Positions 4,862 to 14,784 of a DNA stretch of 43,366 nt are shown here, in pieces; within the stretch, counting starts at the first letter, position 1, and the number at the start of each line of letters is the position of its first letter. The notes under the pieces are model-generated. The model worked only from the letters and a program-made list of their open reading frames with translations, was not told the DNA's origin and searched no databases. Source of the stretch: Candidatus Bathyarchaeota archaeon (GTDB lineage Archaea > Thermoproteota > Bathyarchaeia > TCS64); the NCBI GenBank assembly GCA_018396695.1, contig JAGTQU010000016.1, positions 1-43,366 of the forward strand, in the 5' to 3' direction. A program made the position numbers and the translations under genes.

Positions 4862-7800
4862 ATGGTATACATTAAAAAGATTATGATTAAGAACTTCAAA
4901 TCGTTCGGCAACCTGGTTAAGCTTAACTTTGAACCAGGATTCAATATCGTAACCGGTCCTAATGGCAGTGGAAAGAGCAACATTATAGATGCTGTTCAAT
5001 TCGTCCTAGGTGAGCTACATACTCGTAGGATGCGTGTATCAGACCATTCAGGTCTCATCTACGACGGGAATGAAGAGGGCGGTTCACAAAAAGCTTCCGT
5101 TGCTCAAGTAACCTTAACCTTTGAAAATACTGACAGGAATTTAGCCATCGATAAAAATCTAGTAAGCATCAGTAGAAAAGTCGACCGTCAAGGGAATAGC
5201 CAGTACTATCTCAACGGCAAGAGAGTTTCAAGACGAGCCATCTTAGATATGTTGGAGATGGCTGGAATCAGCCCAGGAGGCTACAATATCGTGCTTCAAG
5301 GTACAGCGACCAGGCTTAGCGATCTGACTCCGCAGGAGAGGATGAAAGCTTTTGAAGACCTCATAGGAATTACGGAATATGACGAAAAAAAGGCTGAAGC
5401 TAAAGAAAAGCTTTCTGAAGCTGAGAGAAAGATCGAGATCGCATCAGCTAGGATCGATGAGGTTAGAAAACGTGTCTCAGAACTCGAGGCTCAAAGAAAT
5501 GATGCTATTAAATTCCAACTTCTTCAAAATCAGGAGAACAATCTAAATGCCATCAAAACTTCATACAAATTAAATCAGCTTCAAATAGAAGCTGAAAAGA
5601 TAGGAGCGCAAATTGAAAATACGAAACGTGAGATTGAAGCGTTAGAAAAAGAAAAATCGCAACTTATCAAAGAGAGAGATTCTGCCAAAGCTTCATTTGA
5701 AGAATTCAATAAAGAAAATTCAGAAAAAGGGAATACTAGACTGCCTCTACTCAAATCAGATCTTGTTGCAAAAAAAACTCTGAAAAATTCTTTAACTTCG
5801 AGTATAAATAGCCTTGAGCGGCAAAAAAAGGTCCTTGAAGAGGATGAGAAGAATAAACTAAAAGATATAGATAATTTAAAAAATGATTTGATAGTGAAAG
5901 AACAAGAGATAAAAATAAAATCAGATAAATTAAATATTTTAGAGAATGAAATCTCAGAAAAAGAAATTTTTCTGAAAGAGTTAAATGAGAAATTAAATAC
6001 GATTAAAGAGACATCTAAATCAAACCTTAAGAAAATAGAACAATTAACAGAAATATTATCATCTCATCAAGAGATGATAAACGGATATGAAATAGAAATT
6101 AATGGGAAAAAAATAAAATATAATGCGATTAAAGAGAAGTTAGAAGAGAATGACAGGAAAAAAGAAGAAATATTAAAAGTAATTAATACACTAAAGACAA
6201 ACATAGAAAAATATAATGAACTGAAGGAGGAAGAAGCAAAAAAGCTAGAAGATTTACTGAACACCATAGAATCTCAAATAACTCATCAGAGAAATCTGAG
6301 AAATACTATACAAAACGCTAGCAAGCTTGCAAAAGATGCAGAAATAATAGTTACTCAATTTTCTGCTAAGAGAGACCTGTGGGAGAAGCTAGCAGCCGAT
6401 GAGAAAGCATATGAAAGGGTAAAAGAGATGGGTGAAGCTGGCGCTCTGAAAGGATATTATGGGGCTTTAAGGTCGCTAATAAAAGTTGATTTAAAATACC
6501 AAAGGGCAGTGATTGCATCATCTAAAGGTTGGTCTTCTGCCTTCATTTTTGATGAAATCCAAGATATCCTTGAATGTATTGAACATTTGAAAAAAAATAG
6601 ACTCGGCTCAACGAAATTTATCCCCTTAAAAAACATTCAAGAAACGGATCAAGGACACGAAGTCTCTGGAGAAGGAATAGTCGGACTTATCCCTAATCTA
6701 ATCCGTTATGACGATAAGTTCAAACCTGTAATCAACTTCGTCTGGGGAAACACAGTAATCGTTCAAGATACCTCTGCAGCTCTTGAAGCGGTTAAAAAAG
6801 GTTATATAGCGGTAACCTTATCAGGCGACGTCTATGAGTTAAAAGGAGGGATCATAGGCGGGTTCTATCAGCCTCCACCTGATGCTTCAAAACTCATCCC
6901 GAAAAAAGAATCCATTGACAACTTATCCTCGTATTTGAAATCGCTCAGAGATAGACTCATAAAAAGAATGAGTGACCTTAAGCACTCTGGTGAGGGATTA
7001 CGAAAATTCACCAAGTTTATGGAAAGTTCTCAGAAAATGATTGAAAACATAGATAAACAGATTGAGGAGACTAAAGAAAATATTAGTAGACTTGAGAAAA
7101 ATATTATCGCAATAGAAGATAAGAATAAGGAGATAAAATCAGAATTAGAGCAAGAGCAGAATCTTATAGCTACTCTTGAGGAACGTCGAAGCAAAACGCT
7201 TCAAGAGATAGAAAAAATAAAGACTGAAATCAGTGAAGTTAGAGAGTTAGCCAAACCTTCAAACACAGTAGATCTTGAGATTAGAATCAACGCTCTCAAC
7301 GCTGAGATTTCTAGCCTTCAAAATGAGAGAAACCAGCTCAGATCAGATGTCTCGATATTAACCAGTCTCGTTAATGATCTCATAAGGAGAAGGATTTCTG
7401 AGTCCGAGACTCAAGTTGAAAAATGGCGCGAAAAGATTAGAGAGGTTGAAGAAGAACGCAAAGAGGCAGAAGCAAATCTATCCAATTTAGCAGATGAAAT
7501 AAAAAATTTGGAGAAAGAGTTTGAAAAAGTGGCTTCGGAAGTAGAGGCTTCGACTCAGGTTATCGTTCAGCATCAAAAGACCTTGAAACTATTCGAGCAG
7601 AGAATAGATCATCTTGATCAAAAACGAGAAGCATTATCAAAGAAACACATGGATCTATCTTTCGAATATGAAAAACTCAAGCTGCAGATCAATCAAGTCA
7701 AAAACGATCTGTTTGCTCTAGGGTTCAATGAAAAAATCGATACATCAAACATTAACCTAGATCTTGTCGAAATAACACTATCCTCGATCAAAGCAGAGAA

Positions 7801-8413
7801 GTCTTCACTTGGAGCGATAAACCAGCTCGCTGAGTCTCAGTATGCCGAGATCGTGGGAAACTTTAAGCAGATGAGTGTTAGATTGAACGAACTTGAAGAA
7901 GAAAAAAACTCGATATTAAAGTTCATCGAAGAAGTTGAGAAAGAAAAACAGGAACACTTTATGAAAGCATTCAACGAGGTCTGCGAGAATTTCTCCACAA
8001 TATTCGCTAAACTTACAGGCGGGGGGGAGGGACGTCTAGAACTTCAGAAACCTGAAAATCCATTCTCCGGAGGCGTGGACCTTTATGTCCAGTTCCCAGG
8101 GAAGCCTATGCGATTAGTCGCTGGAGCTAGTGGGGGTGAAAGATCGGTTGCAGCTATTGCTTACCTGCTATCCATACAAAAGTTCTTGAAGGCCCCGTTC
8201 TACCTTTTTGATGAAATAGATGCTCATCTTGACGATCTAAACGTTTTAAAACTGGCTGAGACTCTTAAAGAGAATTCCGATGGCGCCCAATTCATTGTTG
8301 TGACTTTGAAGGATGCTATGGTTCAAAATGCGGAGAGAATATACGGGGTATTTAATCAGGGGGGTTCAAGCCGGGTCATTGCACTCCCCTTAAAATTGGA
8401 GGTGGTATCCTAA
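4862..8413 (+). CDS. smc: Chromosome segregation protein SMC
   Basis: SMC is the ATPase arm of the condensin complex that loops and compacts DNA with ScpA and ScpB. The 1183 residues show the full layout. The N-terminal ATPase half has Walker A GPNGSGKSN (32-40). A first coiled coil runs from about 165 to 500, a hinge at about 520-670 includes GALKGYYGALRSLI and GGIIGGFY, and a second coiled coil extends to about 1020. The C-terminal half carries signature ASGGERS (from 1089) and Walker B APFYLFDEID (about 1111-1120). The first coiled coil at 5860-6260 is much richer in A/T and in Lys/Asn/Ile codons than the rest. The scpA ATG follows the stop directly. Confidence 0.97.
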   Translation: MVYIKKIMIKNFKSFGNLVKLNFEPGFNIVTGPNGSGKSNIIDAVQFVLGELHTRRMRVSDHSGLIYDGNEEGGSQKASVAQVTLTFENTDRNLAIDKNLVSISRKVDRQGNSQYYLNGKRVSRRAILDMLEMAGISPGGYNIVLQGTATRLSDLTPQERMKAFEDLIGITEYDEKKAEAKEKLSEAERKIEIASARIDEVRKRVSELEAQRNDAIKFQLLQNQENNLNAIKTSYKLNQLQIEAEKIGAQIENTKREIEALEKEKSQLIKERDSAKASFEEFNKENSEKGNTRLPLLKSDLVAKKTLKNSLTSSINSLERQKKVLEEDEKNKLKDIDNLKNDLIVKEQEIKIKSDKLNILENEISEKEIFLKELNEKLNTIKETSKSNLKKIEQLTEILSSHQEMINGYEIEINGKKIKYNAIKEKLEENDRKKEEILKVINTLKTNIEKYNELKEEEAKKLEDLLNTIESQITHQRNLRNTIQNASKLAKDAEIIVTQFSAKRDLWEKLAADEKAYERVKEMGEAGALKGYYGALRSLIKVDLKYQRAVIASSKGWSSAFIFDEIQDILECIEHLKKNRLGSTKFIPLKNIQETDQGHEVSGEGIVGLIPNLIRYDDKFKPVINFVWGNTVIVQDTSAALEAVKKGYIAVTLSGDVYELKGGIIGGFYQPPPDASKLIPKKESIDNLSSYLKSLRDRLIKRMSDLKHSGEGLRKFTKFMESSQKMIENIDKQIEETKENISRLEKNIIAIEDKNKEIKSELEQEQNLIATLEERRSKTLQEIEKIKTEISEVRELAKPSNTVDLEIRINALNAEISSLQNERNQLRSDVSILTSLVNDLIRRRISESETQVEKWREKIREVEEERKEAEANLSNLADEIKNLEKEFEKVASEVEASTQVIVQHQKTLKLFEQRIDHLDQKREALSKKHMDLSFEYEKLKLQINQVKNDLFALGFNEKIDTSNINLDLVEITLSSIKAEKSSLGAINQLAESQYAEIVGNFKQMSVRLNELEEEKNSILKFIEEVEKEKQEHFMKAFNEVCENFSTIFAKLTGGGEGRLELQKPENPFSGGVDLYVQFPGKPMRLVAGASGGERSVAAIAYLLSIQKFLKAPFYLFDEIDAHLDDLNVLKLAETLKENSDGAQFIVVTLKDAMVQNAERIYGVFNQGGSSRVIALPLKLEVVS

Positions 8414-13366: not shown

Positions 13367-14212
13367 TTATTGTGAACATAGAAGATTCAGTATCGCTAAG
13401 GTAGAATATATCGCCTCTTCGGTGCGAACAGATTCACATCCCTGTTCAGGCACCATATTGAGAGTGTAATGGAAGGCCTCATCTATAGTCAACCCTTCTC
13501 CAGATAGAATCTCTTTCAAACCTTTTCTAGGAGATCCGAACGCGATGAATATGCTTCTCACCTCGTTTAACTTTGAAGCCAGTTCTGCATCTATTTTTCT
13601 AATATCTGTACCAAGCCTAGATGTCGCTATTGTTAACTCAAATTTTTCATCGAGGGCGATCTCCCCTAATCTGCGTTCAGAGACGTGAACATCGAATCCC
13701 CAATAATCCTCAACCTCCGAGTCGCCTATGAAGACTCCTTTAAGCTCGGGAGCTGTCTCTGTTATTCGAATTATCGCTCTTCCACCGATCGAGGGGGCTC
13801 TACCAAACGCTTTCAGATGCCTATCCACGCCTACGTCTACCATAAACTCGCCCCCTGATTTTGTTAGCACCACTCCTTCCCTTACATCCCCCTTCTTCAA
13901 CATAGAGGCTCTACTCTCAGTTGGATGGTTTGGAGTTCTGAGAGGCGGCAGTACGCCGGCGAATTTAAGCTCCTTGCGGCGTTTGAAAAGGTATTTCCTC
14001 AGATACTGTGGAGTCTCCATATAATCTAGAATTAACTTGATGAATCGAGACTCGTCCGGATGGTCAGGGTATATGTAAATTTTATCCACTCTAAAGATAG
14101 AGGCAGCTCTGCCTATCTGACCGATAAGGCTTGTCTTCTCCCTCTGATGCGGGATCTCTGAGACGAGGGAGGATGGGATCGCTATTGAAAAAGGGATTTT
14201 TCTACGCTTTAC
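13367..14212 (-). CDS. SPOUT-class RNA methyltransferase (COG2106 type) with non-standard start
   Basis: This is a SAM-dependent SPOUT methyltransferase related to the MTH1-type RNA-methylating family. It has the deep-trefoil C-terminal part (IRKIDAELASKLNEVRSIFIAFGSPRKGL, LNMVPEQGCESVRTEEA) and an inserted OB-like domain at about 105-205. The first ATG/GTG/TTG in frame is GTG 14089, but this would remove a conserved N-terminus. Between 14212 and 14090 the frame encodes SIAIPSSLVSEIPHQREK and GQIGRAASIFRVDKIYIYPD, exactly the family's opening. An in-frame TAG at 14224-14222 limits the frame. A strong GGAGGG (14232-14227) lies upstream. I place the start at GTA 14212 provisionally, giving about 281 residues; ATA 14185 is another option. 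It overlaps the upstream gene end. Confidence 0.8.
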   Translation of the reverse strand, partial: VKRRKIPFSIAIPSSLVSEIPHQREKTSLIGQIGRAASIFRVDKIYIYPDHPDESRFIKLILDYMETPQYLRKYLFKRRKELKFAGVLPPLRTPNHPTESRASMLKKGDVREGVVLTKSGGEFMVDVGVDRHLKAFGRAPSIGGRAIIRITETAPELKGVFIGDSEVEDYWGFDVHVSERRLGEIALDEKFELTIATSRLGTDIRKIDAELASKLNEVRSIFIAFGSPRKGLKEILSGEGLTIDEAFHYTLNMVPEQGCESVRTEEAIYSTLAILNLLCSQ

Positions 14213-14732
14213 TTTCGAACCCTACTCCCTCCTTCCTATATTTCAGCCAAGACCTCCAACCAGTTTTAACATAGCGTTCTCTACGCTCTAAATCTTTCAT
14301 CACCCATCTAAGCAACGATTTAAAGCTACGCATCTTTTCGACATCTTCTTCGCAGCCTACACCTAAACGGACAAGGCTTTTTACGAACTCTCTTTCAGCG
14401 AGCAGCTGAGTCTCTCCCTTAATTTTTCTCAACACGATGGAATAGCCCTGCTTCCTCAATTCTTCCGCAGCCTTCGATAGAATATACCCGGTGCAGAGAT
14501 GTATCGGCTCAGCCTCGTCAACTTTCAGAGCACATATACCTTTACAGATTACGTCGACGGCTTGATTCAAATACAGTTTCTTTTCGAAAACCCCCTCCTT
14601 AAAAAATTCGAGAGGAATCTCTCCCACATATGATTCACCGGTATCGACGCGTCGCATTACGATGACGACGCCGCCTATAAGGTCGCCCCAACCTGCTTGA
14701 CGCCCGGTTTCACCGAGTATCGTCCACTTCAA
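14202..14732 (-). CDS. Unknown archaeal protein, 176 residues
   Basis: I do not recognise a family. The sequence starts MKWTILGETGRQAGWGDLIGG with two short beta strands, and a middle segment HLCTGYILSKAAEELRKQGY looks like a strand-helix unit. A long basic and aromatic C-terminus follows, including RRERYVKTGWRSWLKYRKEG, which might contact nucleic acid (inference). The start is TTG 14732, behind a TATA-like TTTAAAAAG around 14773-14781. Its last codons contain the Shine-Dalgarno sequence of the SPOUT methyltransferase and overlap that gene, so the pair is probably cotranslated and may work together on RNA. Confidence 0.7.
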   Translation of the reverse strand: MKWTILGETGRQAGWGDLIGGVVIVMRRVDTGESYVGEIPLEFFKEGVFEKKLYLNQAVDVICKGICALKVDEAEPIHLCTGYILSKAAEELRKQGYSIVLRKIKGETQLLAEREFVKSLVRLGVGCEEDVEKMRSFKSLLRWVMKDLERRERYVKTGWRSWLKYRKEGVGFESKA

Positions 14733-14784
14733 CGACCATTAAGCATCTACACATTAAAAGAACGATTAATACCCCCTTTTTAAA

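Follow-up and report, generated by a model that had tools for sequence, protein, structure and literature searches.

The window, as we call the whole 43,366-nucleotide stretch of Bathyarchaeota DNA analysed here, carries a SPOUT methyltransferase gene that has no ordinary start codon: its frame contains not a single ATG, GTG or TTG between the TAG that bounds it upstream and a GTG well inside the conserved protein (Table 1). The open reading frame is best explained, on the strength of sequence comparison, as a functional methyltransferase gene lying second in an overlapping same-strand pair, and we consider it likely that it is translated from a non-standard codon inside that overlap, the two genes being probably coupled. 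We infer both the coupling of initiation and the codon actually used.

Table 1. Features of the overlapping gene pair and their positions in the window
Feature	Positions	Strand	Remarks
SPOUT methyltransferase ORF (COG2106, PF02598)	13367..14221	minus	stop to stop
GTG, first standard in-frame start	14087..14089	minus	residue 45
Predicted catalytic Arg38 codon of the SPOUT ORF	14110-14108	minus	upstream of GTG 14089
TAG stop of the upstream gene	14202..14204	minus	overlaps SPOUT N-terminal codons
GTA candidate	14210..14212	minus	codon -8, SD spacing 12
TCG at the family start slot	14216..14218	minus	codon -10 before SIAIP, SD spacing 6
TAG bounding the SPOUT frame	14222..14224	minus	
Shine-Dalgarno (SD) GGAGGGAG	14225..14232	minus	inside the end of the upstream gene; same distance to the slot in g7
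Upstream gene of the overlapping pair	14202..14739	minus	exon 1 14739-14719, exon 2 14696-14202
Putative 22-nt bulge-helix-bulge mini-intron	14697..14718	minus	inside the upstream gene, after codon 7

Identity and conservation of the SPOUT reading frame

The frame, which ends at TAA 13369-13367, matches PF02598 at 2.4e-53 and 182 bits (cut-off 27), with ORF residues 11-278 spanning profile positions 2-302 of 302, as befits a full-length member of the family. Its alignment with PDB 1k3r (M. thermautotrophicus MT0001) begins at residue 8 and pairs R33 of MT1, the conserved residue that corresponds to the catalytic Arg in 2'-O-methyltransferases (PMC1829167), with Arg38 of the window ORF, seven residues before GTG 14089. 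In the segment that precedes this GTG, 25 of 39 residues are identical between the window and G006, a species of the sister genus g7. The original prediction had regarded the N-terminal extension as genuine family sequence, a view that the profile match, the structural alignment and the identity to G006 all uphold; the absence of a standard start between TAG 14224-14222 and GTG 14089 and the position of a GGAGGG (14232-14227) within the end of the upstream gene were also verified, every coordinate being correct, and the analysis bears out its general conclusion that the SPOUT N-terminus requires either initiation at a non-standard codon or a differing base.

Substitution patterns within g7 show the ORF to be under purifying selection, pN being 0.03-0.04 and pS 0.21-0.29 over 200 codons. 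Over the 33 codons that run from the TTA at the start slot of this genus (see below) to the first standard start, G006 and G011 differ by 3 synonymous and 0 non-synonymous changes; these numbers are small, and together with the identity between the window and G006 they indicate that the segment without a start is translated. Initiation at GTG 14089, the first standard start in the frame, would produce a shortened protein that begins after this segment, conserved as it is between genera, and that lacks strand 1 (SIAIP) and the predicted catalytic Arg38; because of the loss of these two elements we hold such a start to be very unlikely, the least credible of the readings considered here. Readthrough of TAG 14224 was rejected as well, given that the stretch from the preceding TGA to this TAG contains no start codon at all.

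The start slot among relatives

SPOUT homologues were sought in 60 related genomes and their start regions read, 24 order-level homologues were aligned, and the start slot was defined by its distance in codons upstream of the S-I-A-I-P motif; the window's own genus is sampled by one genome. Most species of the window's family and order start the gene with ATG, GTG or TTG. In the nearest relatives the slot is codon -10 before SIAIP, 5-8 nt after the SD, and it is occupied by ATG in G007, G020, G012 and G010, by TTG in G017, G008, G023, G021 and G013, by CTG in G003 (genus g4), by TTA in g7 and by TCG in the window, the spacing being 6 in the last two cases. Alignment of the locus, which the original prediction had proposed in order to see whether relatives carry a standard codon in place of GTA 14212, did reveal a standard start in nine relatives, but the homologous codon of the window is TCG 14218-14216 and not GTA 14212.

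The three g7 species (G006, G016 and G011), represented by independent assemblies, have no standard SPOUT start either. After the bounding TGA their start region reads agg agg/ggg gag ctg gcc tta gcc ctt agg cgc, with caa acc replacing ctg gcc in the third species, and TTA is the only candidate near the SD that is common to them. Across the window, g7 and the other relatives, the SD and its spacing have been retained while the codon in the slot has drifted. The recurrence of the missing start in g7 excludes chance and makes it unlikely that we are dealing only with a base error in the assembly of the window. Two further observations were made among the homologues: in G051, G068 and G069 (family f11, genus g27; L028, L058 and L061) the sole candidate near the SD is a CTG, placed shortly after AGGGGA at a spacing of 3-5, and one homologue (L018, G013:C82) contains a single in-frame TAG.

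These comparisons bear directly on the possibility that the start in the window is ordinary and that an error in the consensus or a variant from a minority strain has made a TTG in the slot appear as TCG, or a GTG at 14210 as GTA. Each candidate codon is indeed one base away from a standard start, TTG is common in the slot of relatives at an identical SD spacing, and a single genome stands for the genus; however, one error would not account for both genera, and the three independently assembled g7 species have no standard start at the slot either, from which it follows that the loss of a standard start is tolerated in the family. We therefore consider this explanation possible but rather unlikely. 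In the form given to it originally, that a single base differs from GTG, it leaves unexplained the three g7 species as well as the f11 trio that has CTG alone. If there is nevertheless a base error in the window, it may just as well lie in the slot codon as at base 14210: a single substitution separates TCG from TTG, which is common in this position.

Candidate start codons within the overlap

Relative to the upstream gene, SPOUT is read in the +1 frame in both the window and g7, and the candidate starts at 14218-14210 are a few nucleotides away from the stop of that gene at 14204-14202, as would be expected of a coupled pair. The sole near-cognate candidate remaining in the overlap of the window is GTA 14212. 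In three genomes of the window's family the spacing from SD to start peaks at 5-11 nt and is at least 12 nt in 24 of the 173 measured starts. GTA 14212, which the original prediction had put forward, is a possible start, but its long spacing of 12 counts against it: it falls two codons past the homologous slot TCG 14218 and outside the 5-8 nt seen in its relatives. ATA 14185, put forward alongside it, was rejected as an unlikely start on account of its position inside the first beta strand and its distance from the SD.

Translation from a non-standard codon, the reading that we favour, could proceed as follows. Ribosomes ending the upstream gene at 14204-14202, together with the strong SD GGAGGGAG, would position the small subunit over 14218-14210, and initiation there would no longer depend on ATG, GTG or TTG. 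The start codon in g7 would probably be the TTA at the homologous slot and that of the window probably GTA 14212, since the TCG in its slot is not near-cognate. Termination-reinitiation at overlapping gene pairs is established in archaea, namely in Haloferax (PMC6728339). A bolder version of this scheme, which we put forward only tentatively and regard as doubtful, is that in this lineage the start codon of a coupled gene with a strong SD has become dispensable: the SD and the terminating ribosome set initiation at a slot that has drifted from TTG to CTG, TTA and TCG, and use is made of codons that pair poorly or not at all with the initiator tRNA.

The +1 arrangement in the window and g7, with the upstream stop inside the overlap, would also suit a fusion in which ribosomes shift by +1 near that stop into the SPOUT frame and no start is needed. 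We judge such a fusion improbable: the loci without a start share no slippery site, the window reading GCG TAG A and g7 reading CCT TAG G; the SD stands at initiation spacing from the slot rather than adjoining the stop; and genus g2, with the same +1 arrangement, uses separate ATG or TTG starts.

Non-standard start codons elsewhere in the lineage

A survey of start codons compared conserved ORFs over approximately 238 kb of the window genome, 745 kb of G006 and 1.2 Mb of G017, the many flags that arose from antisense or out-of-frame artefacts being discarded. In G006 a CTG stands opposite the partner's TTG in Nop10, NrdD, SpoIIM and an unnamed 275-aa gene; in G017 a CTG stands opposite the partner's ATG in a TFS-like protein and an ATA opposite ATG in a 391-aa gene, and a gene with a tRNA-editing domain probably starts with CTG (L124, L164 and L128 in G006; L106, L092 and L090 in G017). 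Most of these genes have an SD at 6-10 nt, that of the SpoIIM gene being closer, at 2-4 nt, and odd starts make up roughly 1-2% of the approximately 360 conserved genes in each of G006 and G017. CTG or ATA thus occupies the homologous start position in several conserved genes, and CTG starts are therefore not exceptional in this lineage. The survey contained no second secure GTA or TTA start, leaving the SPOUT gene as the one that argues for these two codons. To our knowledge, neither TTA nor GTA is used naturally as a start codon, and we know of no precedent for TCG.

A transketolase-like gene with an extended N-terminus presents a similar case: in both genera (L049, G000:C17, about 6692-7850; L154, G006:C2) no standard start is present where its conserved N-terminus begins, for which an ATT or ATA start or a change of frame are possible explanations.

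A putative mini-intron in the upstream gene

The upstream gene is conserved, with no Pfam family matched to it. In the relatives that have the gene its protein begins with MVVEVDD...GWGDL or close variants, and in five relatives whose sequence was read the two N-terminal parts are continuous. In 11 species including the window they are split by an insert of 20-22 nt that breaks the frame or adds stops (besides the window, at L002-L004, L007-L010, L012, L013 and L019). All 11 loci present a strict bulge-helix-bulge motif, that is, two 3-nt bulges and a 4-bp central helix, in the same position and with cuts that restore the frame. The central helix is GACG/CGTY and the bulges are ATA and, in most cases, AAG/AAT; cutting each bulge after its second residue yields GAC GAT, followed by GCA or TCA and then GG- TGG, and the predicted spliced product, DD(A/S)GWGD, matches the uninterrupted relatives. 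Over the 11 loci 98.3% of the cells are paired and 3 pairs have changed on both sides.

The machinery that such an insert would need is encoded: RtcB is found in G000, G006, G011 and G017, and genes for the splicing endonuclease (PF01974) number two in each of G000, G006 and G011 (L170-L172) and one in G017, two per genome suggesting a two-subunit enzyme. The insert probably represents an archaeal mRNA intron in a gene other than cbf5, although its splicing is something that we infer, and on the intron model the TTG 14732 at which the ORF mechanically begins would be an artefact. No convincing further mini-introns came out of a frame-change scan of three genomes, a procedure blind to very short first exons. 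Near 5798 of L117 (G006:C9) a conserved ORF switches frame with no residues missing, through an indel of 1-2 bases or a frameshift.

The presence of this insert in the upstream gene, together with RtcB and the two endonuclease subunits, raises the question of whether a second bulge-helix-bulge intron near the junction might supply the SPOUT start codon or join both ORFs. A scan for the strict motif from -150 to +120 relative to the start returned no site common to the four loci without a start, and splicing there would alter the upstream protein at its conserved end; we find this account highly improbable.

Significance and comparison with known systems

Genes of this kind would be shortened or missed by gene finders limited to ATG, GTG and TTG, and in the case of the SPOUT gene truncation would remove the predicted catalytic residue. 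A slot that holds TTG in some genera and CTG, TTA or TCG in others, with the SD kept throughout, amounts to a natural test, in archaea, of the extent to which recognition of the start codon can give way to SD pairing and termination-reinitiation. The neighbouring insert, if it is an intron, would extend the occurrence of introns that the tRNA-splicing endonuclease cuts from cbf5 to another conserved protein-coding gene.

As regards the protein, the window ORF shares with the COG2106/PF02598 RNA methyltransferases (MT0001/1k3r; human C9orf114) a full-length domain match, the N-terminal strand with the catalytic Arg and the C-terminal NxxPxQGxxxVRTEEA, and differs from the family in that its gene has no standard start codon. 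The same difference separates it from the coupled pairs of Haloferax (PMC6728339), which resemble the window in their overlapping stop/start region and in an SD inside the upstream gene, whereas the downstream gene of the window is without ATG, GTG or TTG. Among the rare non-AUG starts of NCBI table 11 (CTG, ATA and ATT), CTG and ATA also occur at homologous starts in this lineage; in contrast, the TTA of g7 and the GTA or TCG of the window lie outside that list. Finally, the insert in the upstream gene is comparable to the mRNA introns of archaeal cbf5, which measure 16-39 nt against its 20-22 nt (PMC2738675): both are of the bulge-helix-bulge type, with cuts, predicted ones in the insert, that fall between residues 2 and 3 of the bulge, but most cbf5 motifs are relaxed while that of the upstream gene is strict, and the putative intron belongs to a different gene and a different lineage.
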